The notes under the pieces: model-generated
Databases searched by the model: none
Told to the model about the DNA's origin: nothing
Seen by the model: the letters and a program-made list of their open reading frames with translations, nothing else
Position numbers and translations under genes: made by a program
In this document: piece by piece, positions 768-25,253 of the stretch
Numbering within the stretch: position 1 is the stretch's first letter
Layout of the letters: each line of letters starts with the position of its first letter
Source: Tepidicaulis marinus
Lineage (GTDB): Bacteria; Pseudomonadota; Alphaproteobacteria; Parvibaculales; Parvibaculaceae
Assembly: GCF_000739695.1 (NCBI RefSeq)
Contig: NZ_BBIO01000003.1
Coordinates: forward strand, 1-64,000
DNA length: 64,000 bases
Reading direction: 5' to 3'

Positions 768-800
768 ATATCCTGCCCCCGAAACGACAGGGTAATTTCG

Positions 801-880: not shown

Positions 881-986
881 TACACTTAGAGCTTTGAGTG
901 GCTTTAGACGGGCTAGCTATTCGTCAGCGGCCGCGCAAAGCGAAAGGGAGGGCGAGATTTGCTGACCAAGCCCTCCCATAAGTCAC

Positions 987-3900: not shown

Positions 3901-4151
3901 GACCTTGTGTAGTCCAGCCCCGGAAGGCCGCCCATTGCCGTTTCAAGCGGGAAGGTCACGCGCTGTTCCACCTCCACGGGGGAATAGCCGGGAGCGGCGG
4001 AATTTATCTGCACCTGGATATTCGTGATATCCGGCACGGCATCGATGGGCAGGCGTGTGAAGTTGTAAATGCCGAAGGCGGCGACAAATGCTGTGGTCAA
4101 CAGGACCAGCCAGCGATGTGCCACACAGAAGGAAACGATACGGGAAATCAT
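987..4151 (-). CDS. czcA: CzcA-type heavy-metal (Co/Zn/Cd) RND efflux transporter
   Basis: Inner-membrane RND antiporter that drives divalent metal ions out of the cell through CzcB and CzcC. The 1054-residue length is standard for the family. The start fits (MISRIVSFCVAHRWLVLL gives helix 1), followed by the first periplasmic domain, and the essential transmembrane-4 motif DFGLIVDGAVIIVEN lies near residues 400-415; its two Asp and one Glu carry the proton path in CzcA. The second half repeats the architecture and ends with RPLATVVIGGIISSTLLTL. It is the last gene of the leftward czcCBA operon, 11 bp after czcB. Exact metal specificity (Zn/Co/Cd versus Ni/Co) cannot be decided from sequence inspection. 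Confidence 0.93.
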   Translation of the reverse strand: MISRIVSFCVAHRWLVLLTTAFVAAFGIYNFTRLPIDAVPDITNIQVQINSAAPGYSPVEVEQRVTFPLETAMGGLPGLDYTRSLSRYGLSQITVVFEDGTDIYRARQLIGERIQAVSGELPADVETSMGPISTGLGEIYMYTVEAEPGVLTEEGVPYTLSDLRALHDWVVRPQLRTVGGVVEVNAIGGYERQLHIVPDPYKLTSYNLSFHDVVRALEHNNINVGAGYIERSGEQYLIRVPGQAEKADEFAEILLGTHKGRPIYVHDVADVTFGKELRTGAATHNGKETVLGTAVMLIGENSRDVAADVGTKLESIQKSLPPGVKITTLYDRTSLVQKTIATVRTNLVEGAALVIVVLFVLLRNFRAALITAAVIPLSMLITVSGMVEYKISANLMSLGAIDFGLIVDGAVIIVENCLRRLSDEQKRFGHTLSIKDRFAVVTDATREVMTPAMFGSFIITVVYLPVLTLTGVEGKMFTPMALTVVIALLSAMVLALTFVPAAIAIFIRGDVVEKESPVMRWAQRGYDPALGWAMRHQKAVAAGAVVLVVIAALGATRFGTEFIPRLDEGDVAVQALRAPGTSLTQSVEMQQKIEKALLELPEVREVFARTGTAEVATDAMPPNISDGYVMIKPRDEWPDSGKSKETLLEEIDAILATLPGNNYEISQPIELRFNELISGVRADLGIKIYGDDMDTLLASANEVAAVMRQIEGASGVNVEQVSGLPVLSIEIKRDMAARFGLNVADIQEVVRAAMGGARAGTFYEGDWRTPVIVRLPEDLREDIDRLRDLPIPLPPEHQDETAQPVSYSPFDGAMPRVVPLQAVADIRLVPGPNQISRENSKRRITVSANIRDRDLGSFVEEAQAAVDAQVSLPPGYWFEWGGQFEQLVSAAQRLSIVVPAALVLIFALLFASLGNAKDALLVFSGVPLALTGGLAALALRGLPLSISAGVGFIALSGVAVLNGLVIISFIKNLRQQGKELDEAIWEGAAKRLRPVLMTALVASLGFVPMALATSAGAEVQRPLATVVIGGIISSTLLTLLVLPAIYRLAHAREA

Positions 4152-4162
4152 GCGCGCCTCCC

Positions 4163-5137
4163 TTAATGCGAATGGGAGGCGGCATTTTTGCCCGCCTCGG
4201 CTTTGAGAATGAACGCGTTGTCCGCCACATAGGGCTCGCCAGGCGCCAAACCATCAAGAAGTTCGACATGGGTGTCGTCCGCCTGGCCGAGTGTGATCCG
4301 GCGCTCTTCGAATTCCCCCGCTCCGGCAGGCACATATATGACGGGATCCGGCCCTTCATACTGGACGGCACTGCGTGCAATCACGATGGAAGCTTCGACC
4401 GGCTGCAAGCTAACCTTGGCGGTGACATAAAGACCTGGATTGAGATGGCCTTCAACATTTGGAATAACAGCGCGCGCTAACAGGCTTTGCGTGTCCTGCG
4501 CGGCAATTGGCGATACGTAACCGATTTCCGATGTAACGGGCTTGTCATCCACGCGCCCTTCGAAGGTGACGGCCTGCCCCTCCCGTATGAGATCAGCATC
4601 ATGCGTGTGGATCTGAAGATCAAGCCAGACTGAACCGAGGTCGGCAATCACCATCAAGGTGTCGCTGGTGCCCGCATATTGGCCTGGTGCAACATTCCAT
4701 TGTACGATCTGCCCGCTGCTTGGCGCGCGCAGGGTATAGGCGCGCAGGCTTTCATTGCTTTCCATCACGGCGAGCGCATCGCCTTCTTCGACCTTTTCGC
4801 CGAGCCGTTTTTTCACATCCAGAACGACACCCGAAAAGCGCGGCACGATGTGAACCAGTTTCTCCTGATTGGGGCGGATGAGGCCGAACACATTCAGTGA
4901 GGGGGTGATTGTTCCTGCCTCGGCCCGGCGGATGCCGAGCTCCGCCGTTGCAAGCTGATCTTCGGAGAGATGGATTGTTCCTTCCTCATGCTCTCCTTCT
5001 TTGTGCTCTTCTTCATGCTCCTTATCCTCGTGGTGGTCATCTTCTTCTTCGTGTGGCCCGCTGGCGTAGGCTGGAGCGGCAAGAAGGAGCAGAACGCTGA
5101 GGAACAGGAACATCTTCTTTGGGGTGGTATTTTTCAT
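4163..5137 (-). CDS. czcB: CzcB-type periplasmic adaptor (membrane fusion protein)
   Basis: Adaptor bridging the RND pump and outer-membrane channel. 324 residues from an ATG at 5137, chosen over longer frames because it is preceded by GGAGAG about 9 nt upstream and starts a clean signal peptide (MKNTTPKKMFLFLSVLLLLA...AYA). Directly after the cleavage region comes a very His/Asp/Glu-rich stretch (HEEEDDHHEDKEHEEEHKEG), a likely metal-binding flap, then the lipoyl/hairpin/barrel core: PRFSGVVLDVKKRLGEKVEEGD is the first half of the biotinyl-lipoyl motif and APSSGQIVQWNVAPGQYA the second. The C-terminus is again His-containing (ASHSH). czcC stops 5 bp before this start, implying translational coupling. 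Confidence 0.93.
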   Translation of the reverse strand: MKNTTPKKMFLFLSVLLLLAAPAYASGPHEEEDDHHEDKEHEEEHKEGEHEEGTIHLSEDQLATAELGIRRAEAGTITPSLNVFGLIRPNQEKLVHIVPRFSGVVLDVKKRLGEKVEEGDALAVMESNESLRAYTLRAPSSGQIVQWNVAPGQYAGTSDTLMVIADLGSVWLDLQIHTHDADLIREGQAVTFEGRVDDKPVTSEIGYVSPIAAQDTQSLLARAVIPNVEGHLNPGLYVTAKVSLQPVEASIVIARSAVQYEGPDPVIYVPAGAGEFEERRITLGQADDTHVELLDGLAPGEPYVADNAFILKAEAGKNAASHSH

Positions 5138-5142
5138 GTCAA

Positions 5143-6435
5143 TTACTCTCCGGCTTTGCGGCGGGATGCGGCGCCGGTATTCAGAAGGTCGAGACCGGTT
5201 AGCCCGGCGATTTCGGCAGCGGCATTGCGGCAAGCGAGCACAGCCTCTACAGCCTGAATTTCGCTTTCTATCTCCGTTTGCGTAGCACCTAGAAGATCGA
5301 GCACGCCGAAGCGCCCCCGGATATAGCCGTTGCGAATGGTCCGAGACGTCTGCTCTGCGGCAGGCAGGACAGAGCGGTGCAGGCGCTCCGCTTCACCACA
5401 CCGGCCAGTATAGGCCTGATAGGCTTCCTGCAGTTTCCGGCTCAACTCTGCGTGAGAAAGCCGTACACCAAGATCAGCTTGGGTAATGCGGCTCGCAGCT
5501 GCATCGATATTGCCTCTGTTCCGGTCGAAAACGGTGAGGGGGATCGAGAAGGAAACCAGAAAAGCGCTTTCATCCGTCGCATTGAAATACCTCGTGCCGG
5601 CACTGATAGTGGGGTCCGGTACGGCCTTTGCCCGTTCAAGGTCGAACGTGGCCCGGCGCTGCTCGACTTCCGCGCGTCTACTCTCAAGCAGGGGGTTTTC
5701 TTCAAGACGCGTATTCAGTTCCTCAAAAGACGGTAGATTACTGTCAGGCACGCCAAAGGTCCCGGCTGCCTCTACGGGACGGTAGGCAGGCTCGGACCAC
5801 AGGGCCAGAAGCGCCTGCTGCGCTGTGCGCAATTGTGTCTCGCTGTTCGATAACCGGATTTCGGCCAGATCGAGCGCGAGCTGTCCCCGGTTCAAGTCTG
5901 CTTCTGAAGATGCGCCCCGTTCCACCTTTTCGCGCAAGGCAGGCAAGAGACGCTTGATGGCCTCCGCTGCTTCTTTGGCGGCTTTTACCTGTTCCTGGGC
6001 GGCAAGCAGGTGATTGAAGGCAATCGAGACATCTTTCTGGAGGGCCCGTTCGGTTGCGTCCCGGGCCGCTTGCGATACGGCTTCGGCTTGTTGTGCCGCT
6101 TTCACGCGCGCCGCGCGTTTACCGCCAATCTCGATGCGCTGGGACAGGCTTACGGTAAAATCAGCTTCGTCCAGGCCCTCATAAGGGCCGGAGCCGAGAA
6201 TGTTTTCCGCCTCTGCCCCGATTTCGGGGTTGGGTAACACGGCAGCTTGCTGGGAGAGGGCTTTGCGCTCCTCAAGTCCCTGTGCCGCTCTTTCAACAGA
6301 GAGGTTCTGAGTGAGGGCAATTCGGACGGCTTCAGAGAGAGTGATGGGGTGAGCGGCAAGCGCGGGAACTGTCTGCGCAGAGAGCAGACACGCGCCAAGC
6401 AGCCCCTGCCGCAATAAGCGGGTACTGGCTTTCAT
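5143..6435 (-). CDS. czcC: CzcC-type outer-membrane efflux protein (TolC family)
   Basis: Outer-membrane channel of the tripartite metal pump; 430 residues with a signal peptide ending near ALAA (residues 25-28). Two outer-membrane efflux protein repeats are visible, each beginning with an amphipathic coiled-coil helix (for example LSEAVRIALTQNLSVERAAQGL and later FEELNTRLEENPLLESRRAEV). QRIEIGGKRAARVKAAQQAE is the CzcC-like motif joining strand to helix. First transporter gene of the operon, 56 bp after the small leader gene and 5 bp before czcB. Confidence 0.92.
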   Translation of the reverse strand: MKASTRLLRQGLLGACLLSAQTVPALAAHPITLSEAVRIALTQNLSVERAAQGLEERKALSQQAAVLPNPEIGAEAENILGSGPYEGLDEADFTVSLSQRIEIGGKRAARVKAAQQAEAVSQAARDATERALQKDVSIAFNHLLAAQEQVKAAKEAAEAIKRLLPALREKVERGASSEADLNRGQLALDLAEIRLSNSETQLRTAQQALLALWSEPAYRPVEAAGTFGVPDSNLPSFEELNTRLEENPLLESRRAEVEQRRATFDLERAKAVPDPTISAGTRYFNATDESAFLVSFSIPLTVFDRNRGNIDAAASRITQADLGVRLSHAELSRKLQEAYQAYTGRCGEAERLHRSVLPAAEQTSRTIRNGYIRGRFGVLDLLGATQTEIESEIQAVEAVLACRNAAAEIAGLTGLDLLNTGAASRRKAGE

Positions 6436-6491
6436 GGATCACCTGTAGATAGAAGGATATCTCAGAGCGCCCAGCGTGGGGCGCAGTGCAT

Positions 6492-6818
6492 TCAGGCGAT
6501 CAAATCTTGAGGAGGTGGCCCATCGGGAGTGTGGGCAAGGCTTTCAGCATCAGCTGCACGACCTGGGGATACGCAGGCTTCACCGAAAAAAGCCCGCGCA
6601 AGCTGCGGGGCCGGCACGTCCATGTGCTGGAAAATGTGGCAGACTTCGCATTTATCGGCACCGGGCGCAGCATTGCTGTGGTCAACACTTTCGCCACTGG
6701 CGCTTAAGCCCTGCGTCGTTCCGTCAAGAATCACATCATGCGCGCTAGCCAGCGAAAGCAGGCTGAGCAAAATGCTGATCATAACGATTCTAGAGGTTAG
6801 CCTGACCATGGCAATCAT
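6492..6818 (-). CDS. Small secreted Cys/His protein leading the czc operon
   Basis: 108 residues (105 if the ATG at 6809 is used). Not assigned to a named family with certainty. A hydrophobic signal segment (IVMISILLSLLSLASA) is followed by a short mature domain with CEVCHIFQHMD near residues 57-67 and one further Cys, a layout seen in small periplasmic proteins encoded at the head of metal-efflux operons. The position, 56 bp upstream of czcC on the same strand, suggests a periplasmic metal-binding or sensing role; this is inference. No strong ribosome site separates the two possible starts (GGCGGG lies about 11 nt before 6818). Confidence 0.6.
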   Translation of the reverse strand: MIAMVRLTSRIVMISILLSLLSLASAHDVILDGTTQGLSASGESVDHSNAAPGADKCEVCHIFQHMDVPAPQLARAFFGEACVSPGRAADAESLAHTPDGPPPQDLIA

Positions 6819-7192
6819 TATGCGCAGCAGCCCGCCAAAAGCAATATGAGTCCTTTGCTGTGGCTAACGGTCGCAAGTGCGAACTCCTCATGGGAATAGC
6901 TCTGAACACTTTCTGGTGTGCTGCCTATATCGTGCGCAACGGACCGTGATCTCGTGCAATGACATGCAAACTCATGCAAGCACATTCAATCTTGTGCAAA
7001 CTCGTTCAATGGGTTCGAGAAAGCGTGCTTAGAAAATTCGAAAGCAATGGTGGGTTTGTTTGGTACCTATCTTCCCTATCAGAGCGGAATCGCTTATTTA
7101 GGATCACGTCCCCAGCTCATACCCCCGCTGCATGAGCCAGGCATCACATCAAAAGCAAGTTGTGGCCCAGCGTAATCCGGGCCGGTGAAGCC
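6819..7192. other. Divergent intergenic region between czc operon and recombinase
   Basis: 374 bp between the leftward czc operon and the rightward recombinase, containing repeat array B (6955-7014, listed separately). It must hold both promoters, but I see no near-consensus -35/-10 pair I would commit to. No czcR/czcS or MerR-type regulator is present on either side, so control of the efflux operon is not explained within the window. Confidence 0.5.
6955..7014. repeat. Array of six degenerate 10-bp direct repeats (array B)
   Basis: Six in-register 10-bp units (TGCAATGACA, TGCAAACTCA, TGCAAGCACA, TTCAATCTTG, TGCAAACTCG, TTCAATGGGT) matching array A at 801-880 in sequence and orientation. It ends about 180 bp before the recombinase start and lies about 140 bp upstream of the first czc operon gene, so it could be a recombinase or regulator binding platform. 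Confidence 0.75.
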
Positions 7193-8863
7193 ATGCGCAT
7201 TGCAATCTACGCTCGATATTCGAGTGACCTTCAGAATCCTGCATCCATTGAGGATCAGGTTGCCCTTTGTACCTCCTTGATGGAGCGTCATTTCGGCGAA
7301 GCGAAAGCCAAAGCTGTCTTTAGTGATGCGGCGCTTTCTGGCTCTACAATGTCGCGCCCTGGCTTAACTGCTTTGCTTGAAGCTGCGGAAAACCGTGACA
7401 TTGATCTTATTGTTGCTGAAGGGCTTGACCGTATATCGCGATCCCTGTCGGACATTGCGTCGATCTATGAGCTTTTGCAGCATTATGGCGTAAAGGTTTG
7501 GACGGCACACGAGGGTGAGGTGAGTGATCTGCATGTTGGGTTCAAGGGAACGATGAATGCGCTTTATCTGCGCGACATGAAAGACAAAGTGCGCAGAGCA
7601 CATAGAGCGATAGCGACGGCCGGAAGGGCAACCTCAAGTGTGGCTTATGGATATAGAGCTGTTCGCGGGGTTGTGGATGAGCGCGGTAAATACGTAAATG
7701 GCCTGCGCGAGGTGGACCCAAATCAGGCTGTGATTGTGCGCCGAATTTTTGAAGAATTTACCTCCGGTATCCCTGTCAGGCAGATTGTGCAATCGCTGAA
7801 TGATGAGGGCGTTCCCTCGCCGGGTGGAGGATTGTGGCGTACGGCTGCGATAAGTGGGGAGGCAAGCCGGTTTCGCGGCATTCTGTATAATGATCTTTAT
7901 CGTGGATTGCTGGTATATAACCGAACGCATCGAGTCATGGACCCGCGCACCGGGCGGAAAAAGTATGTTGTCAATCCAATCGGAGATTGGGTCAAGGTGC
8001 CGGTTCCGGAATTGCGGATTGTTTCTGATGGTCTTTGGTCAAAGGCGCAGAAGATTATTGGAGAGCGGCGGCGAAATCGAAGTGTTTCCAATAAGGCTTC
8101 TGTTAGGCGGCATAAGGTGCCCGTCAAGGGTGCGCAAAATGTTCGCCCTCTGACGGGATTGGTCAAGTGTGGATGGTGTGGTGGTATAAAGAACCTGGCT
8201 AACAGCACAAGATATGTTTGTGTGACGCATAGGTTTGAGAAGAAATGCAAAAACTCGCGTGGATGGCGAGAGGACCGGCTCGCGTCGGTGTTTCTTGCTG
8301 AACTTTCCAACTTTATTGCCAGTGTCGATGATTGGAATGCGATGTTTTCGGGCGGTATTGAACGAGAGCTAAGAGAGCGGCGTGAGCTGGAAAAGGAGGC
8401 GGCAGCGCTTGAGCTTCGTATTGCCAGGCTTCTGGATGCTATCGAGCATGGCGTCAAAGTTGACTATAATCGGCTGACGGAGCTGCAGGAGCGACGTGAT
8501 TATATTTTGGCATTGCCGCCAGTGCCAAAGGCTGGCGTATCGACAACCACAATCAAGCGTCACCTTGTGCGCGCGGTCGATGTGATTGGATATGAGTGGG
8601 GTAATCGCAAATATGCTGCATCAATTCGGATGCTTTTGCATTTAATCACGGACAAGATTGTGTGCACGCCGATAAAGGACAAGCGGACGGGTGAGCACGT
8701 TGAAATCATGTTCAAACCGCCTGCACAATGGCTTCAGTTTTACATGCGCGTTCATGCTGATTGGCCGTATGTCGGCAAGACATCTTCGGGAGAGGTTATT
8801 AAGCGTCCGGCGCCCGCACGCTCAGTTCTGCGCAACACATATCTGGCAGTACCGGGAGATTAG
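7193..8863 (+). CDS. Large serine site-specific recombinase
   Basis: 556 residues from the ATG at 7193 (GGTGAAG just upstream); the longer frame back to 7160 lacks resolvase homology. The N-terminal resolvase domain opens with RIAIYARYSSDLQNPASIEDQ, where Ser10 is the expected nucleophile and Arg8 its partner, and contains AEGLDRISRSL. The recombinase domain follows (AYGYRAVRG, IVRRIFEEFTSG, ILYNDLYRGLLVYNR), then a zinc ribbon (CGWCGG at about residues 325-330, with further Cys at YVCVTHRFEKKC) and a coiled coil (about residues 385-430). This is the layout of enzymes that integrate or excise phages and mobile islands. Codon choice is visibly richer in A/T than in the housekeeping genes to the right, consistent with transfer. 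No recombination directionality factor is recognised nearby. Confidence 0.9.
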   Translation: MRIAIYARYSSDLQNPASIEDQVALCTSLMERHFGEAKAKAVFSDAALSGSTMSRPGLTALLEAAENRDIDLIVAEGLDRISRSLSDIASIYELLQHYGVKVWTAHEGEVSDLHVGFKGTMNALYLRDMKDKVRRAHRAIATAGRATSSVAYGYRAVRGVVDERGKYVNGLREVDPNQAVIVRRIFEEFTSGIPVRQIVQSLNDEGVPSPGGGLWRTAAISGEASRFRGILYNDLYRGLLVYNRTHRVMDPRTGRKKYVVNPIGDWVKVPVPELRIVSDGLWSKAQKIIGERRRNRSVSNKASVRRHKVPVKGAQNVRPLTGLVKCGWCGGIKNLANSTRYVCVTHRFEKKCKNSRGWREDRLASVFLAELSNFIASVDDWNAMFSGGIERELRERRELEKEAAALELRIARLLDAIEHGVKVDYNRLTELQERRDYILALPPVPKAGVSTTTIKRHLVRAVDVIGYEWGNRKYAASIRMLLHLITDKIVCTPIKDKRTGEHVEIMFKPPAQWLQFYMRVHADWPYVGKTSSGEVIKRPAPARSVLRNTYLAVPGD

Positions 8864-8868
8864 AAACT

Positions 8869-8891
8869 GCCCCGGAGACAAGCTCCGGGGC
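8869..8891. terminator. GC-rich hairpin between convergent genes
   Basis: GCCCCGGAG and CTCCGGGGC form a 9-bp stem just after the recombinase stop and before the end of the leftward small gene. There is no T-run on either strand, so it is only a possible terminator. Confidence 0.45.
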
Positions 8892-8901
8892 CAGGCTCTG
8901 A

Positions 8902-9087
8902 TCATTCCTCGTCGTCTTTCTCGATGCGGCGGATGACCATGCGGCCGTCGAGAGGAAAGCTGTTCAGGCTCAGATTGAAGCCGTCGCCGTCTTCATGCTC
9001 CCAGGCGCCGCCAATGCGGTTCCAGAACTTCTTGCCCTTGCCGGTTTCGATCACCTGAAAGACGCGGTGTGTCGGTTTGTTGCTCAT
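8902..9087 (-). CDS. Small conserved-looking hypothetical protein (61 aa)
   Basis: Start at 9087 is supported by GGAGAC about 8 nt upstream; a METN start at 9099 is possible. The product (MSNKPTHRVFQVIETGKGKK..., then FWNRIGGAWEHEDGDGFNLS, ending in acidic IEKDDEE) is compact, with no signal peptide or membrane segment. The WxHxDGxGFxLxLxxxPLDGR pattern looks like a structured domain seen in small proteins carried by alphaproteobacterial plasmids and islands, but I cannot name a function. It is leftward, like repC and its companion. Confidence 0.7.
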   Translation of the reverse strand: MSNKPTHRVFQVIETGKGKKFWNRIGGAWEHEDGDGFNLSLNSFPLDGRMVIRRIEKDDEE

Positions 9088-9151
9088 GTTCGTCTCCATC
9101 GAATGGGGTGTCCGTCTATGGCTGCCGGAAGGGCGGACAGCGGGACGGGGC

Positions 9152-9373
9152 TCAAGCGACGGCAGGAGCGGCCTCAAAATGGCGCCTGGCGCGGGCAGCG
9201 GCCGGAACGGCCGCAACACGGGGCGCCTCTTTGGGGTTGAGCACCGGCACGGGAGCGCCCAAGCAGACAAGCCGGGACGGACAGCCCGATGTGAGGCGCA
9301 GCTGACATGAGCCCGACAGCGGAATTGCTGACCAGATCGCGGCAAGCAGCACGACGACGCATAGGCGAGGCAT
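9152..9373 (-). CDS. Doubtful small secreted protein
   Basis: The only candidate in the 312-bp gap 9088-9399. 73 residues beginning with a plausible signal peptide (MPRLCVVVLLAAIWSAIPLSGS), then a Pro/Ala/Arg-rich tail that resembles random GC-rich translation. No clear ribosome site precedes it. It may not be a real gene; the remaining bases of the gap show nothing else I recognise. Confidence 0.25.
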   Translation of the reverse strand: MPRLCVVVLLAAIWSAIPLSGSCQLRLTSGCPSRLVCLGAPVPVLNPKEAPRVAAVPAAARARRHFEAAPAVA

Positions 9374-9399
9374 GGGGCAAGAGGCTGGATGAGAAATAA

Positions 9400-9858
9400 T
9401 CAGCCAACCGGCCGTTCCGGCCCGCTACGCGCCATCTCGCGCAGAATGGCATCGATCCGGGCCTTCTCCTCCGCCCGCTCCTCGGTAGGCGGCTCCTCAA
9501 GCTCCCAGAGCAGGGGCAGGCGCTGCAGAACCGGGTCCAGATCGACCGCCACAAGGTTCTTGCCTGAGCGGTCGTAGATGCATCTCAGCCATCGCCGCCG
9601 CTCGAGACGGCGCAGTGTGCGGCGGATCGCTTTGGGTGTCTTGCGGTGTAGCCCGCTCCAATACCGAAGCCGTGCCGGAATCACCAGGTCCCGGCGGCGC
9701 CACTTCTCCTGATCCTCTTCGAGCGTTACCAGAAGCGTCAAAAGGTGCCATTCCTCATCGGATTGCCAGCGGGAGACCTTGGAGAAAGTCAGCACCAGCA
9801 TCCGCATCAGCTCAAGCTGAGGATTCACCACGCGCAGCATATGCTCAAGCTCATGCAT
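9400..9858 (-). CDS. Winged-helix-like protein following repC
   Basis: 152 residues, all-helical in appearance and strongly charged. The middle (RYWSGLHRKTPKAIRRTLRR, then LERRRWLRCIYDRSGK, about residues 66-101) looks like a winged helix-turn-helix: a recognition-type helix followed by a basic turn and short strands. It overlaps the end of repC by 8 bp on the same strand, so the two are almost certainly co-translated, suggesting a replication, copy-control or partition accessory. No family name can be given. Confidence 0.7.
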   Translation of the reverse strand: MHELEHMLRVVNPQLELMRMLVLTFSKVSRWQSDEEWHLLTLLVTLEEDQEKWRRRDLVIPARLRYWSGLHRKTPKAIRRTLRRLERRRWLRCIYDRSGKNLVAVDLDPVLQRLPLLWELEEPPTEERAEEKARIDAILREMARSGPERPVG

Positions 9859-10930
9859 TGCCGCCTCCCTGCCTGCAAAGCGATCGCAGGTTGTGATGGA
9901 TCGTTTGTCTCAAAATCGAGGATTGCAGCATGGAGAAGAGGTAGGCCCCGGGGTTTTTGATCCCCTGCCGGTCCACGGCCACCAGAACGGCCGCAAGCGC
10001 CGCCCAGCCATGCCGCTCGACGGCTTTCTGCCAGGCGTCCGGCCTGATCCGCACGTATTGGCGCACCAGCCAGCCGATGGACCGCGATACGTCCTGCAGG
10101 GCCGTATGCGAGGGTTCTCCGCAAAGCAGCTCCTCCAGATGCGCTGACTCAAGCTGGCGCTGCAGGGTGGGGGAGGCCTCCGCCATGAGGCAAACCAGAT
10201 CCTTGTCGCTGGCCAGAGGCTCTGTCTGCGAGGGGGCTGGAGGAGGACACGGCCGGCACCCTTCTGCCTGCTCTTGTACAAGGTCTGTAAGACCAGAGGT
10301 TTTATTGTAGAGGTTTAGGTTGTCCCTCATGTCATGTCTGGATGCACTGGTAACCTTCCCGGGTTCCGGATCCTCTGCACTTTCCACAGGGGCCGGGATA
10401 TCGAGGCGCTCCTCGTGCAGCCGCTCCCGCTCTTCCCTCAGCTCCTCATTGAACCGCGCATAGGCCGCCTCGAGCTCCGGCAGGCGCCGGGCGAGGGGGC
10501 GCAGGTCAATGCCGCCCGCCCCGTAGCGCTGATTCGCCCTGGTATAGCGGCGCACCAGCCAGCCGCGCTCTTCCAGCAGGGCCAGCAGGCGCACAACGCT
10601 GCGCTTGTTGAGGCCGCACAGCCCCGCGATTCGTGCGTTGCTCAATGTGCATTTGATGGTCTTACCGCTCTTCCAGGCCTCGCGCGGCGTGTGCTGGACG
10701 AGCACATGCAGGACCTTTTCGGCTTTCCCCGGCAAGTCCGGTTCCACAAGCACAAAGGCTGACCCGACCAGTGACCCTGCCCTGATCGATGCGTAGTGGG
10801 GATCCCCCTCAAACTGTTCGGCAAGCATGTTCACGCTCTCGAAATTCTCCGCGCGCTTGGCGAAGCCCCTTGCATGAACAGCTTCGTGTCCGACGTGCGT
10901 TTCAGTTGCAGCTACTTGTTCCATATGCAT
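9851..10930 (-). CDS. repC: RepC-type plasmid replication initiator
   Basis: 359 residues. The N-terminal half carries the RepC-type helix-turn-helix region (VLHVLVQHTPREAW, then ARIAGLCGLNKRSVVRLLAL, LEERGWLVRRYTRANQRYG, IDLRPLARRLPELEAAYARF). The C-terminus has the RP-C C-terminal pattern (WQKAVERHGWAALAAVLVAV, then NPGAYLFSMLQ). RepC starts replication of repABC-family plasmids of Alphaproteobacteria, usually at an origin inside its own gene. No repA or repB lies upstream; instead there are ~250 bp and then tRNA-Ala. A counter-transcribed RNA locus precedes it on the opposite strand (10970-11067). The alternative start at 10924 (MEQ) is possible. Whether it is active in the chromosome cannot be judged. 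Confidence 0.82.
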   Translation of the reverse strand: MHMEQVAATETHVGHEAVHARGFAKRAENFESVNMLAEQFEGDPHYASIRAGSLVGSAFVLVEPDLPGKAEKVLHVLVQHTPREAWKSGKTIKCTLSNARIAGLCGLNKRSVVRLLALLEERGWLVRRYTRANQRYGAGGIDLRPLARRLPELEAAYARFNEELREERERLHEERLDIPAPVESAEDPEPGKVTSASRHDMRDNLNLYNKTSGLTDLVQEQAEGCRPCPPPAPSQTEPLASDKDLVCLMAEASPTLQRQLESAHLEELLCGEPSHTALQDVSRSIGWLVRQYVRIRPDAWQKAVERHGWAALAAVLVAVDRQGIKNPGAYLFSMLQSSILRQTIHHNLRSLCRQGGGNA

Positions 10931-10969
10931 TTCGGCATCGGCTTAATGCCCTGCGCACTGCCCAGGCAG

Positions 10970-10997
10970 TTGACAACAGGGTTCCGTCGCCTAAAAT
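10970..10997 (+). promoter_or_regulatory. Strong sigma-70-type promoter for antisense RNA
   Basis: TTGACA at 10970-10975, a 16-bp spacer, and TAAAAT at 10992-10997, on the strand opposite repC and pointing away from it. No open reading frame follows before the terminator at 11041-11067. Confidence 0.75.
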
Positions 10998-11002
10998 GCA
11001 CT

Positions 11003-11067
11003 CACAGTTCAGGCGAGCGCATTCAAAGCGTTTCTCAAAGCCCCGCAGTTCCCGCTGCGGGGTTTTT
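11003..11067 (+). ncRNA. Counter-transcribed RNA (incompatibility ctRNA-like) antisense to repC leader
   Basis: A ~65-nt transcript is predicted from the promoter at 10970-10997 to the terminator at 11041-11067. It is antisense to the untranslated leader of repC, which starts at 10930 and is read leftward. In repABC plasmids a small antisense RNA in exactly this position, with a strong promoter and a terminal hairpin that is its only prominent structure, represses repC expression and sets copy number and incompatibility. Promoter, length, orientation and terminator all fit; homology to known ctRNAs could not be tested. Confidence 0.7.
11041..11067 (+). terminator. Intrinsic terminator of the repC antisense RNA
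   Basis: Stem CCCCGCAG / CTGCGGGG with a 6-nt loop followed by TTTTT at 11063-11067; the T-run is on the + strand, matching the antisense promoter and not repC. Confidence 0.85.
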
Positions 11068-11180
11068 ACTTTTCGGAAAGCATCAAGCCTAAATCACAGC
11101 CGTTCCCTCATTTAGGGCTTGTCGGCTCCAAGGTGGTTCATGCTAGAATCACCATGTCAGCGCGTGATGCGACGGGGATA

Positions 11181-11256
<76 letters not shown>

Positions 11257-11447
11257 ATAAGGCGGGCGGCGGGCGCCCGGAATTCGGGTTCTTTAGGGCC
11301 GGGAGGCGGGCGCTGTCAAGAGGCGAGGCAAGAGCGTGCGCCCGCCAAAGCGGCGCCAGGCGCGGCGGCGGGCATCTTGCGCAAGGGGGCCAGCGCGTTT
11401 ACATCTAAGCCTCGGGATTTTCTCACAGATTCGCAAGGCGGCGGCAT

Positions 11448-11741
11448 ATGCCCTTTCTCAATATCATCATGCTCGTTATCCAGCTTTACATCTGGATCGT
11501 GATCGCGAGCGCTATCTTAAGCTGGCTCATCGCCTTCAATGTGGTGAACACGCAGAACCGTTTCGTCTTCACGGTGGCCGATATGCTTTACCGGATGACG
11601 GAACCTGCCATGCGGCCGATCCGCCGGGTCTTGCCGGATCTGGGCGGCCTCGACCTTTCGCCAGTGGTGCTCATTCTGGGACTTATCCTGCTGCAGGACA
11701 TCATCGCCTATTATGTCGCCCCGGCGCTGATGGGCTATTGA
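11448..11741 (+). CDS. YggT family membrane protein
   Basis: 97 residues with two hydrophobic segments (about 5-29 and 70-93) separated by the family's basic loop containing [16 protein letters not shown]. YggT proteins are small inner-membrane proteins linked to osmotic stress and, in some bacteria, to division-site or photosystem organisation; the molecular role is unclear. It is followed, with a 4-base overlap, by a DUF167 gene, a pairing (yggT-yggU) conserved in many bacteria. First gene of the likely operon yggT-DUF167-folD. Confidence 0.9.
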
Positions 11742-12097
11742 GCGGCGGGCCGGAGAAAGCAGGGGAGAAGGGCGCGGGGCTGCGCTCTCATCCCGAAGGC
11801 CTCGCGCTTACCTTGAAAGTAGTGCCGGGGGCCAAAGCCAGCCGGATCGATGGCTGGGAGGAAGATGCGGACGGGTCACCTCTCTTGCGGCTGCGTGTGA
11901 GCGCGGCGCCGGAAAAGGGAAAAGCGAACGGGGCCGTTTTGAAACTGCTTGCCAAGTCGCTCGGTCTGCCCGCCGGGCGTCTTCGCGTTTTGAGCGGGCA
12001 AACGGGCCGCACGAAAGTGGTATTGATTGAAGATGCGCAGCGGCAAGAGGGCGGGGCTCTGACGGCCCGGCTCGAGGCGGCTGCCAGGAAAAAATGA
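11738..12097 (+). CDS. DUF167 (YggU) family protein
   Basis: 119 residues if read from the TTG at 11738, which overlaps the yggT stop as TTGA and would be translationally coupled; no ATG lies in frame before the conserved domain. The domain core is clear: [16 protein letters not shown], then [20 protein letters not shown], then [14 protein letters not shown]. Small alpha/beta fold of unknown biochemical function. Its stop overlaps the folD start (ATGA at 12094). The family is certain; the exact start is a judgement. Confidence 0.85.
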
Positions 12098-13005
12098 CGG
12101 AAGATGGGATGACGGCACGGATCATCGACGGCAAAGCCTATGCGGCGGGCCTGCGCGGGCGCATCGGCGACCATGTGGCGCGGCTTCAAAAAGACCATGG
12201 GCTGACGCCGGGCCTTGCGGTTGTGCTGGTGGGCAACGATCCGGCAAGCGAGGTCTATGTCCGCAACAAGGGCATTGCGACGAAGGAAGTGGGCATGAAC
12301 TCCTTCGAGTTCAAACTGCCTGCGGATACGAGCGAAGAAGACTTGCTTGCGAAAGTCCGCGAGCTCAACGCCGATCCGTCCGTGCACGGCATTCTTGTGC
12401 AATTTCCGGTGCCGGATCAGATCAGCCAGCAGAAAGTCATCGATACGATTTCGCCGGACAAGGACGTGGACGGGCTGCACCCCGTGAATGCCGGGCGCCT
12501 TGCCAGCGGGCTTGACGGGCTTGTTTCCTGCACGCCGCTTGGCTGCCTGATGCTGATCAAGGATGTCATGGCGGATATTGCAGGCAAGAACGCGGTGGTG
12601 ATCGGCCGCTCCAATCTTGTCGGTAAGCCGGTGGCGCAGCTGCTTTTGAAAGAGAACTGCACCGTCACGATCGCTCATTCGCGCACGGCGGATCTTGCCA
12701 AGGTGGCCGCCAGCGCGGACATTCTCGTTGCCGCGGTCGGACGCGCAAAGATGGTGAAAGGCGACTGGGTGAAGCCCGGCGCAATTGTCATCGATGTCGG
12801 CATGAACCGCATTCCCGCGCCGGAAAAAGGCGAAGGCAAAACCCGCCTTGTGGGGGATGTGGATTTTGAAGCGGCAAAGGAAGTGGCCGGCGCCATTACG
12901 CCGGTGCCCGGCGGCGTCGGTCCCATGACGATCGCTTGCCTCTTGCACAATACGCTCATTGCCGCTTGCCGCCAGGCCGGGATCGCCGCGCCAGAAGGAT
13001 TGTAA
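12094..13005 (+). CDS. folD: Bifunctional methylenetetrahydrofolate dehydrogenase / cyclohydrolase
   Basis: Cytosolic one-carbon enzyme interconverting 5,10-methylene-, methenyl- and 10-formyl-tetrahydrofolate with NADP. 303 residues (298 if begun at the second Met, 12109). The catalytic region [13 protein letters not shown] carries the active-site Tyr/Lys pair. [20 protein letters not shown] and [11 protein letters not shown] are family motifs, [15 protein letters not shown] is the NADP-binding loop, and the C-terminal signature PGGVGPMT is intact. Coupled to the DUF167 gene by a 4-base overlap; the next gene starts 15 bp later. Confidence 0.96.
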
Positions 13006-13020
13006 GGAAGGCCTATCGAT

Positions 13021-14022
13021 ATGGAACAGCGCCCGCTCGGCTCTTTATGGCCCGTCAGTCTGCTCACCCTCGGGGGCGGAGGGCTCGGTCAGGTCTGGGG
13101 TGAAACGGACCGCGAAGAAGCGGTGGCAACGGCGCGCGAGGCGGCCGGTCTCGGCATTACGCTGTTCGATATGGCCCCGCTTTATGGGCGCGGGGAAGCG
13201 GAAGCCGTCATGGGCGAGGCATTTGGGGGAAAGCTGCCCGAGGGCACGCGGGTGACGACGAAATGTTTTCTGGGCTCGCCAGAGCCCGGCGATGTTTACG
13301 GCAAGCTCGAAGCCTCGCTCCGCCGCAGCCTTGACGCGATGAAGCTGGAGCGCGTCGACCTCTTTTTCCTCCACACGAATATCTGTCCGGACGATTACGT
13401 CTATCAGCACGATGCGCAAACGCAGACGCGCTGGGCAACGCGCTGGAGCCTTTACGTGGACAGCGTTATTCCGGCGATGGCGAAGCTGAAGGCAGAAGGA
13501 CTGATCGGCGATTGGGGGATCACGGGCACGGGCCTGCCGAAATCCATCATGGATGCGCTGCGCCATGAGGAAAAACCCGCCGCCGTCCAGGCCGTAACCA
13601 ATCTTCTCGATTCTCCTGGGTCCATGCGCCGCTATGACGAGCCGCCGGAGCCGCGCAATATCATCCGCACGGCGAAAAATAACGGTGTCGGGGTGATGGG
13701 TATCCGGGCGGTGCAGGCCGGCGCGCTGACAAAGGCGCTCGACCGGGACTTGCCGGCCGATCATCCGGAAGTGCGCGATTATGAAAAAGCGGCCCCTTTT
13801 CGCAAATTATGCGCGGAGCTTGGCGGGGACCCGGCGATCCTTGCGCATCGCTATGCGCTTTCCATGGACGGGGTGGATACGGTCGTGCTCGGCGTGAAAA
13901 ACCGCGAGGAGCTGCGCGCCTGCGCCAAGGCGGCGGAGGCGGGCGTTCTGGAGCCGGAGCTGCGCCAGAAGATCGACGGGCTGCGGCTCAATTTTCAAAT
14001 CCCGCGCATGCCGATCGATTGA
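13021..14022 (+). CDS. Aldo/keto reductase
   Basis: 333 residues, (beta/alpha)8 NADPH-dependent oxidoreductase. LGGGGLGQVWG opens the barrel. FDMAPLYGRGEAEAVMGEAF contains catalytic Asp and Tyr, the Lys is in VTTKCFLG and the His in FFLHTN. The pattern resembles D-threo-aldose / L-fucose dehydrogenase-like AKRs, but the substrate is not predictable. A 15-bp gap after folD and the same strand suggest co-transcription. Confidence 0.9.
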   Translation: MEQRPLGSLWPVSLLTLGGGGLGQVWGETDREEAVATAREAAGLGITLFDMAPLYGRGEAEAVMGEAFGGKLPEGTRVTTKCFLGSPEPGDVYGKLEASLRRSLDAMKLERVDLFFLHTNICPDDYVYQHDAQTQTRWATRWSLYVDSVIPAMAKLKAEGLIGDWGITGTGLPKSIMDALRHEEKPAAVQAVTNLLDSPGSMRRYDEPPEPRNIIRTAKNNGVGVMGIRAVQAGALTKALDRDLPADHPEVRDYEKAAPFRKLCAELGGDPAILAHRYALSMDGVDTVVLGVKNREELRACAKAAEAGVLEPELRQKIDGLRLNFQIPRMPID

Positions 14023-14041
14023 GCGGCATCGAGGGGTAAGG

Positions 14042-15565
14042 ATGAGGGGGCCAATGGGGCGGATTTTTTCAGCGGGTTGTGCGCGCCTCTCACCGGTGCT
14101 GTCCTCTTTTCTGTTTCTCGCGTTATTCACGCTGGCCTTGCCGGCCGCCGCCGACCGCTACCGCGAGGGGCAAGGCATGCTTTCCTGGCCCCAGGAAGAG
14201 ATGGTTCAGGCGATGGAGCTTTATGTGCCCCGCCGCCTTGCCGAGCTTGATGTGCCGGGCGCGGCCATTGCCGTGGTGCGGGACGGGCAGCTTGTCTATG
14301 AAGGCACGTTCGGCCTTGCCGACACCTGGAACGGCGCGCCGGTGACGAAGAAGACGCTCTTCGAGGCGGCCTCGCTCGGCAAAAGCGTCAGCGCTTACGG
14401 CATTCTCATTCTGGCGCGGGAAGGTTTCCTGCCGCTGGATGCGCCGCTTCAAAAAGCACTGCCCCGGCCCTGGCCCATGGAAGGGGGCGATGTTTCCGCC
14501 CTGACGGCGCGCCAATTGCTCACCCACACATCCGGTCTCGGCAATAATACCGCCGCGCCCGACAGCGAGCTTGCCTTCGCGCCGGGGCGCAAGTTCTCCT
14601 ATTCCGGTATCGGCTATATGTATCTGCAACATGCCGTGGAAGAGATTGCGGCGGCGGATTTTCAAACCGTGATGCGCGATCTTGTCTTCGCGCCTTTCGG
14701 CATGGAGGAAAGTTATTTTGCGCTGCCGCCGGCCTCGCTCGGAGCCCTGGCGCGCGGCTATGTGCCGGTGCTGCAGCCGGTGCTGATCATTCTTCTGCCT
14801 TTCCTTGCTCTCAGCCTGATCTTTATCGGCGCGGGCTGGGCGCTTTACCGCTTCGCGCTCGACCGGCCCAAATATTATTGGACGGATGCTTTACCGCCTG
14901 CAGGCCTTGCCTTTGTCACTGCGGTGGCGCTGGTCTGGCCCTATATCGGGACGGGGCGCATGCCGTTCATCCTGATCGTGACGATCGCTTATCTTGCCGC
15001 CCTTGCCGTTCTCTATTTTATTGTCAGTTTTCTTGCCGGGGTGCTCGGCTTTTACGGACCGCGCGACGGCACGCTTTCGCGCGGGGATGAGGGGAGCGGG
15101 CGGCTTGTCAGCGCTGTTTCCTTTCTTATTGCCATTGGTCTCAGCGTCGCTCTTTTGAGTCAGCATATTCCGGTGCCGCGCATGCCGGCGGGCGAGCTCA
15201 ATGCGGCAAACTCTTTGCGCAGCACGGCGGGCGATCTTGGCCGCTTCGTGGCGGGCTTCATTCAGGCGCGCCGTCTGGGGACCGAATGGCGCGAGCGGAT
15301 GGTAAGCGAAACCGTACCCGTGAGAGATGGGATGGAATGGGGGCTCGGCATCGGCATGCGCGAAGCGGAAGGGCGCAAGACCTATTGGCAGTGGGGCGCC
15401 AATCCGGGCTTTGCCTCGCTCATGGTGATCGATCCGGCGCGCCGGGGCGGCGTTGTCATTCTCACCAATTCATCCGATGGCGATAAGCTTGCTCAGGAAG
15501 TCGCGGGCCAGGTGCTGGGGCTTCAGCCGGGCTGGGAATTGCCCGCTGCCGCCGTTCCCTTTTAA
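14042..15565 (+). CDS. Beta-lactamase-fold serine hydrolase with an internal membrane block
   Basis: 507 residues. After an N-terminal hydrophobic segment (about 17-36, signal or anchor) comes a class C beta-lactamase/PBP-like domain: SxxK as SLGK at 111-114, LLTHTSGLG, and the YxN-equivalent YSG near 178. Four strongly hydrophobic helices then occupy about 240-385, and the hydrolase fold resumes with NSLRSTAGDLGRFVAGF and the third motif WGANPGF near 450. Likely acts outside the cytoplasm on peptidoglycan-related or ester substrates; function inferred only at fold level. 19 bp after the aldo/keto reductase. Its last 4 bases overlap the convergent next gene. Confidence 0.85.
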   Translation: MRGPMGRIFSAGCARLSPVLSSFLFLALFTLALPAAADRYREGQGMLSWPQEEMVQAMELYVPRRLAELDVPGAAIAVVRDGQLVYEGTFGLADTWNGAPVTKKTLFEAASLGKSVSAYGILILAREGFLPLDAPLQKALPRPWPMEGGDVSALTARQLLTHTSGLGNNTAAPDSELAFAPGRKFSYSGIGYMYLQHAVEEIAAADFQTVMRDLVFAPFGMEESYFALPPASLGALARGYVPVLQPVLIILLPFLALSLIFIGAGWALYRFALDRPKYYWTDALPPAGLAFVTAVALVWPYIGTGRMPFILIVTIAYLAALAVLYFIVSFLAGVLGFYGPRDGTLSRGDEGSGRLVSAVSFLIAIGLSVALLSQHIPVPRMPAGELNAANSLRSTAGDLGRFVAGFIQARRLGTEWRERMVSETVPVRDGMEWGLGIGMREAEGRKTYWQWGANPGFASLMVIDPARRGGVVILTNSSDGDKLAQEVAGQVLGLQPGWELPAAAVPF

Positions 15566-15981
15566 GAAGGGGGCCTTCCCTTTTCCAGCGCCGCCTTTGC
15601 CTTCGTCACTGCCTTTTCCATGCGCGCGCGGAAAAGCGCGCCGGCATTCGGCGGGCGCAGCATCACCTCGATCAGTTTGATCTTATTGTCCTCGCCCAGC
15701 GTGATGAGGTCGATGCCTTTGAATTCAATGTCATCGATCTTGCCGGAAAATTCGAGCGCCCAGTCCTTGCCGTCGATCCATTCACGCACATACTTGATGG
15801 GGCCGAGCGCTTCGGGTACGCAGCTCATGATGACGAAAACCTCGATGCCCTTGCGCTCTTTCCAGTAAACCGGCGTGCGCAGTACCGCATCTTCGGCAAA
15901 GAGCGCGGGCAGAAATTTCGCATCGCCCGTTTCGACGAATTGATGCCAGAGTTTGTAGGTCTCTTCGGCGCTTTGCGGCAT
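15562..15981 (-). CDS. SnoaL-like / NTF2-fold protein
   Basis: 139 residues. The sequence begins ETYKLWHQFVETGDAKFLPA and LFAEDAVLRTPVYW, the typical start of the SnoaL-like NTF2 fold (helix followed by a strand with a conserved aromatic/proline), and ends with LIEVMLRPPNAGALFRARME. Such proteins form small cone-shaped dimers acting as isomerases, hydrolases or binding proteins; no catalytic Asp/His set can be assigned. Tail-to-tail with the serine hydrolase (4-bp overlap). Confidence 0.8.
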   Translation of the reverse strand: MPQSAEETYKLWHQFVETGDAKFLPALFAEDAVLRTPVYWKERKGIEVFVIMSCVPEALGPIKYVREWIDGKDWALEFSGKIDDIEFKGIDLITLGEDNKIKLIEVMLRPPNAGALFRARMEKAVTKAKAALEKGRPPS

Positions 15982-16084
15982 GACTTTCTCCCTTCAGCGG
16001 ATGCAAGCATGCGCAAGAGGGCGCAGGCCGCGCAAGGGGGCGGGCGGTTCAGTTTTGCAAAAGTACAAGTGCGGGGGCGGGCAA

Positions 16085-16119
16085 CAAAAAACCGGCCCGT
16101 TTTTCAGGGACCGGTTTTC
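16085..16119 (-). terminator. Intrinsic terminator of ppa
   Basis: On the minus strand AAAACCGGTCCC pairs with GGGCCGGTTTT and is followed by a T-rich tail, about 25 bp after the ppa stop. The A-rich arms also allow function on the other strand. Confidence 0.75.
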
Positions 16120-16140
16120 AAATCTTTAAAGAAGCCGGAC

Positions 16141-16686
16141 TTACTCGGCGGCTTCTTTTGCGTTCTTCGCCGCTTCGATGCCGGTGACGATGAGGCCCGC
16201 GGCTTCTTCCGGACCGCCCCAGCGGTTGACCTTCACCCATTTGCCGTCTTCGAGGTCTTTATAATGCTCGAAGAAATGCGCGATGCGTTTGATCAAAATT
16301 TCCGGCAGGTCTTCGTAAGACGCAACATTCTTGTAATAAGGATTGAGCGCATCGACGGGCACGGCGAGAAGTTTTTCGTCCTGGCCCGCTTCATCTTCCA
16401 TCATCAAAACGCCGATGGGCCGGCAGCGCATGATGGCGCCGGGCACGACCGGAATGCGCGAGACGACGAGCACGTCCACCGGATCACCGTCATCGGACAG
16501 CGTGTGGGGCACGAAGCCGTAATTGCAGGGATAATTCATGGAGGTGTGGAGGAAACGGTCCACCACCAGTGCGCCCGATGCCTTATCAAGCTCGTACTTC
16601 ACCGGATAGCCGCCATGGGGGACTTCGATCACGACATTGATGTCGTAGGGCGGGTTCTTGCCAATCGGGATGGCGTCTAGACGCAT
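16141..16686 (-). CDS. ppa: Inorganic pyrophosphatase
   Basis: Family I soluble pyrophosphatase hydrolysing PPi to two phosphates and pulling biosynthetic reactions forward. 181 residues, as expected for the bacterial hexameric enzyme. The signature [10 protein letters not shown] (near residue 66) carries the metal-binding aspartates. [32 protein letters not shown] and [11 protein letters not shown] are all standard. argG starts upstream on the same strand and ends 10 bp before ppa begins, so the two may share a transcript, which would be fitting since argininosuccinate synthase releases PPi. Confidence 0.97.
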
Positions 16687-16696
16687 GATACCTCTG

Positions 16697-17926
16697 CTAT
16701 GACTTTACGCGGTTGTTACGGGAGCGAAGAAGACGCAGGCGCAGCGCATTCAGCTTGATGAAGCCTTCCGCATCGCGCTGGTCGTAAACGCTGTCTTCTT
16801 CGAAAGTGACGTGCTCCATGGAATAGAGCGAATAGGGCGAGGAACGCCCGACAACGGTGGCATTGCCCTTATAAAGTTTGACGCGCACGGAGCCCGTCAC
16901 CATTTCCTGGCTCTTGTCGATCAGCGCCTGCAGCATCTCGCGCTCCGGGCTCCACCAGAAACCGTTATAGATAAGCTCGGCATAGCGCGGCATGATTTCA
17001 TCTTTCAGATGCATGGCGCCCCTATCGAGGGTCAGACTTTCCATGCCGCGGTGGGCGGCAAGCAGCACCGTGCCGCCCGGCGTTTCGTAAACGCCGCGGG
17101 ACTTCATGCCGACGAAACGGTTTTCCACAAGGTCGAGCCGGCCGATGCCATTGTCCCCGCCTAGCTTATTTAGCTTGGTGAGAAGGGCGGCGGGGGACAG
17201 CTTTTCCCCGTCGATGGAAACGGGATCGCCTTTTTCAAAACCGATCTCGATATAGGTCGGCTTGTCGGGCGCCTCTTCCGGGGAGACGGTGCGGCTGTGG
17301 ACGTATTCGGGCGCTTCTTCGGCCGGGTCTTCCAGCACCTTGCCTTCGGCGGAGATGTGCAGAAGATTCGCGTCCACCGAGAAGGGCGCTTCGCCGCGCT
17401 TGTCTTTGGCGATCGGGATCTGATGCTTTTCGGCGAATTCGATGAGCCGCGTGCGCGAGGTCAGGTCCCATTCGCGCCAGGGGGCGATGACCTTGATCTC
17501 CGGGTTCAGCGCGTAATAGCCGAGCTCGAAACGGACCTGGTCGTTGCCCTTGCCGGTTGCCCCGTGGCAGACGGCATCGGCGCCCACTTCGCGCGCAATT
17601 TCGATCTGGCGCTTGGCGATGAGGGGGCGGGCGATGGAGGTGCCGAGCAGGTAGATGCCTTCATAAAGGGCATTGGCGCGGAACATCGGGAAGACGTAGT
17701 CGCGCACGAATTCCTCGCGCAGATCCTCGATATAGATTTCCTTGATGCCGAGCATTTCGGCCTTCTTACGGGCCGGCTCCAGCTCTTCGCCCTGGCCGAG
17801 ATCGGCGGTGAAGGTGACGACCTCGCACTCATATTCTTCCTGAAGCCATTTCAGGATGATGGAGGTGTCGAGCCCGCCGGAATAGGCGAGCACCACTTTA
17901 TTGACGTTTTTCTTGCTGTCGCGCAT
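16697..17926 (-). CDS. argG: Argininosuccinate synthase
   Basis: Ligates citrulline and aspartate with ATP (releasing AMP and PPi) in arginine synthesis. 409 residues from the ATG at 17926, preceded by AAGGGA; the open frame further upstream is not conserved. The PP-loop AYSGGLDTS is at 14-22, and [24 protein letters not shown] and [16 protein letters not shown] are the expected substrate-binding segments. A promoter candidate lies about 95 bp upstream (18025-18052). Followed within 10 bp by ppa. Confidence 0.97.
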
Positions 17927-18024
17927 GGCGTGTCCCTTCGCTAAGGGTGGCGGCTTGCCGGTGTTTCCGGCCATGTCCCTAAGGCCGGTGCCGGGACGCT
18001 GGGCGGCCCTTCGTGTTGCGGCGC

Positions 18025-18052
18025 ACTATAGGCAAAAGCCCCCTAGAGACAA
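18025..18052 (-). promoter_or_regulatory. Promoter candidate for argG
   Basis: On the minus strand TTGTCT (18052-18047), 16-bp spacer, TATAGT (18030-18025). It overlaps a hairpin at 18038-18058 (GCCCCCT/AGGGGGC followed by TTTT on the minus strand) that could also terminate the upstream DUF3422 transcript, so the two signals are interleaved. Confidence 0.55.
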
Positions 18053-18150
18053 GGGGGCGCAAGGTCTTTCAGCGTCTTTCCGGGGCTTTCGTGTGCCGTT
18101 TGGCCACTCTTTCAGCCGCGGCGGGCCGGAGGGCCGCATTTTTTCCTCAC

Positions 18151-19449: not shown

Positions 19450-19678
19450 GGCAGGTGTTCCGGTGGGGTTGAAGGCCGGTGGGGTTGAAGGAAAGGCCGG
19501 TATAGAGCGGATCGGGTGCTTTCCGCAAGGGCGGGCTGGTGATGCCGCGTGGGCGTTGCATACGTTCTTCTTCATTTCCGCAAGTCAGGCGGCGCCCTTG
19601 AAGGATCGCCGCGCAGGGCTCCGCGTGCTAGGAAAAGGGCAATAGTGAGCCTTTAGTAAGCCTTTTGCGGGGATGGAT

Positions 19679-25225: not shown

Positions 25226-25253
25226 TCTTTTGCGCGCCTGAAATGCGGGCGGT

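Follow-up and report, generated by a model that had tools for sequence, protein, structure and literature searches.

A tRNA-linked island of Tepidicaulis marinus with a solo RepC gene and a predicted antisense RNA is probably a replicating, relaxase-less mobilizable element

The window analysed here, a 64-kb stretch (64,000 nucleotides) of the Tepidicaulis marinus genome (G000), contains an island that spans about 696-11257, from an oriT-like left end to a tRNA gene (Table 1). We consider it probable that this island is an integrative and mobilizable element (IME) without a relaxase, whose excised circle would replicate by RepC under the control of an antisense RNA. This reading draws on the homology of RepC and the selection acting on it, conservation of the antisense RNA and of the hairpin in the leader, constraint at silent sites within repC, linkage to tRNA genes, a recombinase, an oriT-like block and signs of recent movement. 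From these we infer excision, replication, action of the RNA and transfer of the element.

Table 1. Features of the island and its right-hand border in the window, as predicted from the sequence.
Feature	Position	Strand	Details
Left end, oriT-like	696-800	+	CGTTGAG, GTGCGAATAAG, 20-bp perfect palindrome GGCGGGTGGGCCCACCCGCC, nic-like ATATCCTG/CC, ACGACAGGGTAA
10-bp helically phased repeats	791-880	+	AAACTCGTTC type; downstream of nic-like site
CzcA-type RND pump	987-4151	-	NCBIfam TIGR00914, 1565 bits
CzcB/IhpB-like adaptor	4163-5233	-	IhpB model under its cut-off
IhpA/CzcC-like outer membrane protein	5143-6435	-	IhpA model under its cut-off
Second 10-bp phased array	6931-7010	+	No nic block; just upstream of recombinase
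Large serine recombinase	7160-8863	+	PF00239 77 bits, PF07508 70 bits, PF13408 Zn ribbon
ORF2	9400-9858	-	152 aa; overlaps repC stop; resembles RepC DNA-binding domain
repC, RepC-type replication initiator	9851-10930	-	359 aa; PF03428 38 bits
Candidate oriV in repC	10273-10309	-	TACAATAAAACCTCTGGTCTTACAGACCTTGTACAAG: dyad plus TTGTACAA, local A+T-rich part
Promoter of antisense RNA, TTGACA-N16-TAAAAT	10970-10997	+	Conserved CCgTCGCCTA before and in -10
Large hairpin in repC mRNA leader	10988-11030	-	Overlaps antisense RNA target
Predicted counter-transcribed antisense RNA, ~65 nt	11003-11069	+	Hairpin 11015-11033; terminator hairpin 11037-11066
tRNA-Ala(CGC)	11181-11256	-	ARAGORN; chromosomal side of island right end

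The predicted protein matched the RP-C N-terminal domain of Pfam (PF03428, cut-off 24.4 bits). Its RP-C C-terminal region scored 22 bits against PF11800 (cut-off 32.6 bits), and a C-terminal stretch matched PRK13824 weakly. The score against the RepC equivalog of RepABC (NF040974) was 50.9 bits, below the cut-off of 150 bits, so the protein is a divergent RepC. In a profile-profile comparison (hhalign), residues 69-182 aligned with six repABC RepCs at a probability of 96.8. The dN/dS of repC was 0.07-0.15, also between the copies on contig C30 of G000 and contig C1 of the sister species G001; as judged from these values, RepC is under purifying selection. The ATG at 10924, which aligns with those of the paralogs, is the more likely start.

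A preliminary description had called this a solo repC, and indeed neither repA nor repB lies beside it: its upstream neighbour is a tRNA gene, so it is not part of a repABC operon. No RepB scored above the cut-off in the genome, where the RepB model, which also gives signal in the E. coli and B. subtilis controls, picked up only one ParB-like protein, below threshold and on a different contig. We found no sigma-70 promoter for repC, and none of the tools supported read-through from the tRNA gene as its driver. In Thalassospira, a terminator-like hairpin was read by eye after the tRNA gene. ORF2 aligned with RepC residues 99-153 (36% identity over 58 aa, pairwise E 1e-4). It is 98% identical in the C17 copy of the element and may be an antagonist or partner of RepC; in the G001 C1 copy no counterpart was seen downstream of repC.

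The opposite strand carries the promoter and terminator that the preliminary description had taken to define an RNA of ~65 nt. The promoter, with TTGACA at 10970 and TAAAAT ending at 10997, has 11 of the 12 consensus positions, and TTGACA-N15-19-TANANT occurs only this once in the window. The terminator stem has 13 pairs, and the predicted RNA folds with -28.8 kcal/mol (z -4.1). Conservation in relatives supports the prediction. Promoter, RNA hairpin and terminator are kept in five RepC loci of the genus and in Thalassospira marina, whose RepC is 37% identical, and all five distinct sequences (5/5) retain the -35, the RNA hairpin, the terminator and, around the -10, CCrTCGCCTA. The Thalassospira terminator keeps 13/13 pairs with three double compensatory and three single changes, this covariation coming from one distant species. 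Across 40 genomes of the order, a covariance model of the RNA (R1) matched once per RepC, at E 2e-18 or better, and there were no orphan matches above 32 bits. A weak match at 25194-25298 on the reverse strand of the window (28 bits) is probably a chance promoter plus terminator.

The RNA had also been placed in the position of repABC ctRNAs. Its position and architecture are indeed ctRNA-like, yet it stands outside the described Rfam ctRNA family. The covariance search that had been suggested for the incompatibility RNA family gave no match to ctRNA_p42d (RF00489) even at E = 10, a model that a genuine repABC plasmid, pUSP2, matched as positive control (E 6.5e-8). Nor did any other Rfam family match the RNA at gathering thresholds or above chance. 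As in the solo repC family, the predicted RNA would be counter-transcribed and antisense to the repC leader. On the sense strand this leader folds similarly in 5/5 distinct copies (z -3.6 to -5.0), and the overlap of its large hairpin with the RNA target would explain why the -10 sequence is frozen. In repABC replicons a large leader stem-loop is disrupted by pairing with the ctRNA (PMC3155836). Masking the antisense target changed the accessibility of the repC start codon little. No clear Shine-Dalgarno sequence or intrinsic terminator was found before repC, and hence no signal for translation or termination that would fix the mode of repression by the RNA.

The repC gene itself contains a candidate oriV. 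A run of 37 nt in this region is identical between paralogs that are 69% identical, a length reached in 1 of 2000 codon shuffles, and the silent-site window test on the paralogs gave 16/5000. The linker of RepC has one conserved stretch, LNLYNKTSGLTDLVQ. In Thalassospira the dyad GGTCTTACAGACC is altered on both sides, to GGTTCTACGAACC, and ACCTTGTACAA is unchanged; the silent-site/identical-codon window with Thalassospira alone was not significant. The GC content at the candidate origin is 45%, compared to 60-75% around it, and the A+T-rich part falls at 57% of the length of repC (57-68% in the repABC controls). In p42d, oriV sits in the A+T-rich centre of repC (PMC3155836).

The window locus is one of three paralogous copies in the genome. 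The other two RepCs are encoded on contigs C17 (94% amino acid identity) and C30 (69%), and the conserved upstream region lies beside each of the three genes. The sister species G001, which shares its C3 locus with Rhodobiaceae bacterium UBA4490, has two RepC copies. Outside this genus, RepC was absent among the 40 genomes of the order, and a class-wide search of 385 genomes gave only two weak RepC-like hits, with no tRNA gene near them in the stretches examined. The search of plasmids returned one full-length relative (37% identity), on the 908-kb Thalassospira marina replicon pCSC3H3, and that of phages and viral contigs returned none.

In each case the distance from the repC start to the 3' end of a tRNA gene is 257-276 bp. 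The adjoining genes are tRNA-Ala(CGC), tRNA-Met and tRNA-Ala(GGC) and, in Thalassospira, a tRNA-Met that comes after tRNA-Ile and tRNA-Ala, apparently at the end of an rRNA operon. Because the module is thus a fixed part of a tRNA-linked family, found at three tRNA genes in the genus and in Thalassospira, the earlier suggestion of a recently captured plasmid is, in its simple form, unsupported. A decayed duplicate of a repABC system elsewhere does not fit either, as no repAB was found and the other two RepC copies are solo paralogs, each with its own RNA.

The copies differ in their state. The C17 copy is 5.7 kb long and has a different serine recombinase (35% identity). The C30 copy and its G001 C1 counterpart, at 93.4%, show normal core divergence and vertical inheritance. 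At the C30 locus (L011 11314-11378), homology to the G001 repC ends at the repC stop codon; the C30 frame runs past the lost stop into foreign sequence, an erythromycin-esterase-like gene, and the element is truncated at repC. On contig C4 of G001, a tRNA-Met site without repC has a degenerate copy of the terminator end (L040 6740-6900), likely a scar of element loss.

Divergence and homology place the left end of the island at ~690-696 and the right end at the tRNA gene. Compared to G001, the flanks diverge by 14% (1-690) and 8.6% (11258-20000), and the island by 2.4% (696-8200) and 0.26% (8201-11257), with the low-divergence tract ending immediately beyond tRNA-Ala(CGC). This difference indicates that the island was most likely swapped between the two species after their split, the RepC end last. 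G000 is a draft of 46 contigs, and its contig starts at base 1 of the window; just outside the island, at 1-641, a second pump of the CzcA family is truncated by that start to its C-terminal end.

The cargo is a CzcCBA-type metal exporter (987-6435, reverse strand). As an IME would, the island has its own recombinase, presumed to be the integrase/excisionase, and a recombinase is linked also in C17, G001 C1 and Thalassospira. The Thalassospira enzyme is a relative of the C17 type (38%), lies ~11 kb from repC and accompanies kdp genes as cargo; its frame (L078 16409-18025) is broken by a frameshift, and the annotation covers the second part only. No direct-repeat att sites were found at the island ends. 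A duplicated tRNA 3' end was sought at the left end and rejected, as none was found. A 13-nt inverted match in C17 is explained by the resemblance of ATCCTGCCCCCGC of tRNA-Met to the nic region. Sister genera keep the tRNA-Ala(CGC)-yggT locus but have unrelated genes downstream of it, so they did not give the exact att site.

The left end resembles an origin of transfer. CGTTGAG, GCGAATAA, a palindrome, TATCCTGCC and then 10-bp repeats are common to four element ends, aligned at window 696-800, L010 1383-1490, L041 7865-7975 and L078 15390-15490. The C17 variant of GCGAATAA is GCGACTAA, the last motif (TATCCTGCC) of L041 is interrupted by an 8-nt insertion, and the palindrome of Thalassospira is different, still perfect. 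The combination GCGAATAA-N25-55-TATCCTGCC occurs once in the window (expected 0.00). In the block, the motifs come in the same order as in the RP4 oriT (GCGAATAA, inverted repeat, CTATCCTGCC), and TATCCTGCC is common to the window, C17, Thalassospira and RP4. IncP/MOBP oriTs typically have an inverted repeat and, after it, a nic region with ATCCTG; the window block has this arrangement, its nic-like ATCCTG lying at 770-775. The RP4 query was identical to IncP plasmid records in PLSDB. A BLAST search of plasmids with the block gave chance hits only, and known RNA families gave no match to it at gathering thresholds and only chance-level ones below them.

No other period-10 signal in the 64 kb is as strong as that of the phased repeats at this end (0.66, compared to at most 0.51 in 20 Markov shuffles), and the same array is present in L010, L041, L017 and Thalassospira L078. 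The second array of the window may derive from an oriT that has decayed, or indicate that the island is composite. On contig C5 of G001 (L041 7865-9087), the block and array are found with a truncated serine recombinase (78% to that of C17) and no repC in the stretch examined, which may be a remnant or a RepC-less relative. On G001 C1 (L017 9640-10353), an opposite-strand array separates the repC stop from the end of a serine recombinase gene (44% to that of the window), and the contig ends there.

No relaxase was found on the island. Contig C24 of the same genome has genes for a MOBP-like relaxase, a coupling protein and VirB8/9/10. Just upstream of that relaxase gene is a nic-like site with 12 of 16 flanking positions as in the island, the best of 111 ATCCTG sites when the elements' own ends and tRNA-Met are set aside. 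A helper in the same cell is therefore plausible. Contigs C22 and C46 each have a relaxase gene (L083 8975-10471 and L084 9144-10442) near TrbB-like and TraG-like genes, as read by eye; the two relaxase genes are very similar and apparently belong to two related conjugative elements.

The above supports the proposal of the preliminary description that an integrated island has a RepC module under antisense control. Its suggestion that the island can replicate once excised is the reading we now prefer, given the recombinase, the oriT-like end, the candidate oriV and the purifying selection, with replication itself being inferred. Under this reading, the serine recombinase would excise the element as a circle, and RepC would bind the dyad and A+T-rich oriV within its own gene and start theta-type replication. 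The ~65-nt RNA would pair with the repC leader, disrupt its conserved hairpin and hold RepC low, keeping the integrated origin quiet and the circle at low copy number. Through the IncP-like oriT, a MOBP relaxase and a T4SS acting in trans could carry the circle and its metal-efflux cargo to another cell, where it would insert beside a tRNA gene.

Some points count against the IME reading. Serine recombinases seldom target tRNA genes, neither direct-repeat att sites nor an island-borne relaxase were found, the p42d-type ctRNA and S-element models had no match, the signals before repC do not point to a mode of repression, the covariation comes from one distant species, the identical-codon window is not significant with Thalassospira, and the genome is a draft. 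Three other explanations were weighed. The island could be a fixed, inactive remnant whose repC and RNA survive by recent ancestry, with no more excision or replication. Such a remnant would match the C30 copy, which retains neither its stop codon nor the remainder of the element, the G001 C4 tRNA-Met site that keeps only a degenerate right end, the frameshifted Thalassospira recombinase and the second array of the window island, which lacks a nic block. We nevertheless find it unlikely, since the low dN/dS of repC extends to the C30 and G001 C1 pair, the window copy is intact in every part, and between species with 8.6% divergence in the core its right end diverges by 0.26%. That RepC was domesticated as a tRNA-linked chromosomal regulator, with the RNA tuning a regulatory protein and not replication, is very improbable in our view: the silent-site dyad in repC is expected of an origin, in two orders an oriT-like block and a recombinase are linked to the gene, and it is present in one genus only of the order. 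The points in favour of domestication are the vertical C30/G001 C1 copy, at core divergence (93.4%) and under strong purifying selection, the second RepC-like DNA-binding domain in ORF2 and the constant distance to the tRNA gene.

The remaining alternative touches the transfer step only and is compatible with replication of the circle by RepC. Here the block at 696-800 would be an attachment or accessory site of the recombinase, not an oriT, and the element would be integrative, non-mobilizable and spread otherwise. Serine integrase att sites usually adjoin the integrase gene, as the block does in L010 and L041, where it is directly upstream of the recombinase gene, and it marks the element end. 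However, the window block lies 6.4 kb from the recombinase, and GCGAATAA, the inverted repeat and TATCCTGCC have the order and spacing of RP4. The phased repeats after the nic-like site also recall the bent TraK region of RP4. We regard an attachment site as rather unlikely, with a small but real chance of being correct.

An IME replicating by RepC has partial parallels. SGI1 integrates at trmE through a tyrosine recombinase, and the RepA and RepA/RepC proteins of the IncP island and GISul2 are, as far as is known, of other types than the window RepC. The RP4/IncP-alpha oriT shares GCGAATAA, the inverted repeat and the TATCCTGCC nic region with the island; overall similarity is low, the 10-bp array replaces RP4 sequence, and a relaxase would act in trans. 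SGI1, a replicating IME, is likewise chromosomal, with its own initiator and oriV and a need for a helper in transfer; its initiator, in contrast to that of the island, is of the Rep_3/RepA type and is activated by AcaCD/FlhDC with translational coupling, and an antisense RNA is unmentioned in that account (PMC7826253). The IncP island and GISul2 are also IMEs with plasmid-type replication genes, one of them alphaproteobacterial, but have tyrosine integrases at guaA and RepA or RepA/RepC (PMC5704250). Solo RepC with a ctRNA is known on the plasmids pRmeGR4a and pSmeLPU88b (repC2), where, as in the island, repC has no repAB in its operon and an antisense RNA lies upstream on the opposite strand; these repC-family replicons are plasmids and in rhizobia always occur together with repABC (PMC10194956). 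In contrast, the island is integrated beside a tRNA gene and has a recombinase, an oriT-like end and an RNA that RF00489 does not match. With repABC replicons such as p42d it shares the RepC N-terminal domain, the ctRNA position, the large leader hairpin and the A+T-rich part of repC (PMC3155836), but it lacks repA and repB, and its RepC is under the NCBIfam equivalog cut-off. The repC S-element model had no match at the island locus. In the open-licence literature we found no description of a RepC/ctRNA module in a tRNA-linked IME.

These elements may therefore represent a new alphaproteobacterial family of relaxase-less IMEs, each an antisense-RNA-controlled RepC replicon beside a tRNA gene, in which the similar RNAs of co-resident copies would silence each other's repC and that of incoming elements (RNA incompatibility or immunity). 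We put this forward tentatively, as a possibility more doubtful than not. The element would join repABC/repC plasmids with counter-transcribed RNAs to relaxase-less mobilizable islands, which are usually treated apart. It would make testable how a chromosome silences an integrated plasmid-type origin and how one genome can accommodate three related copies, with the 5.7-kb C17 copy as a near-minimal natural model.
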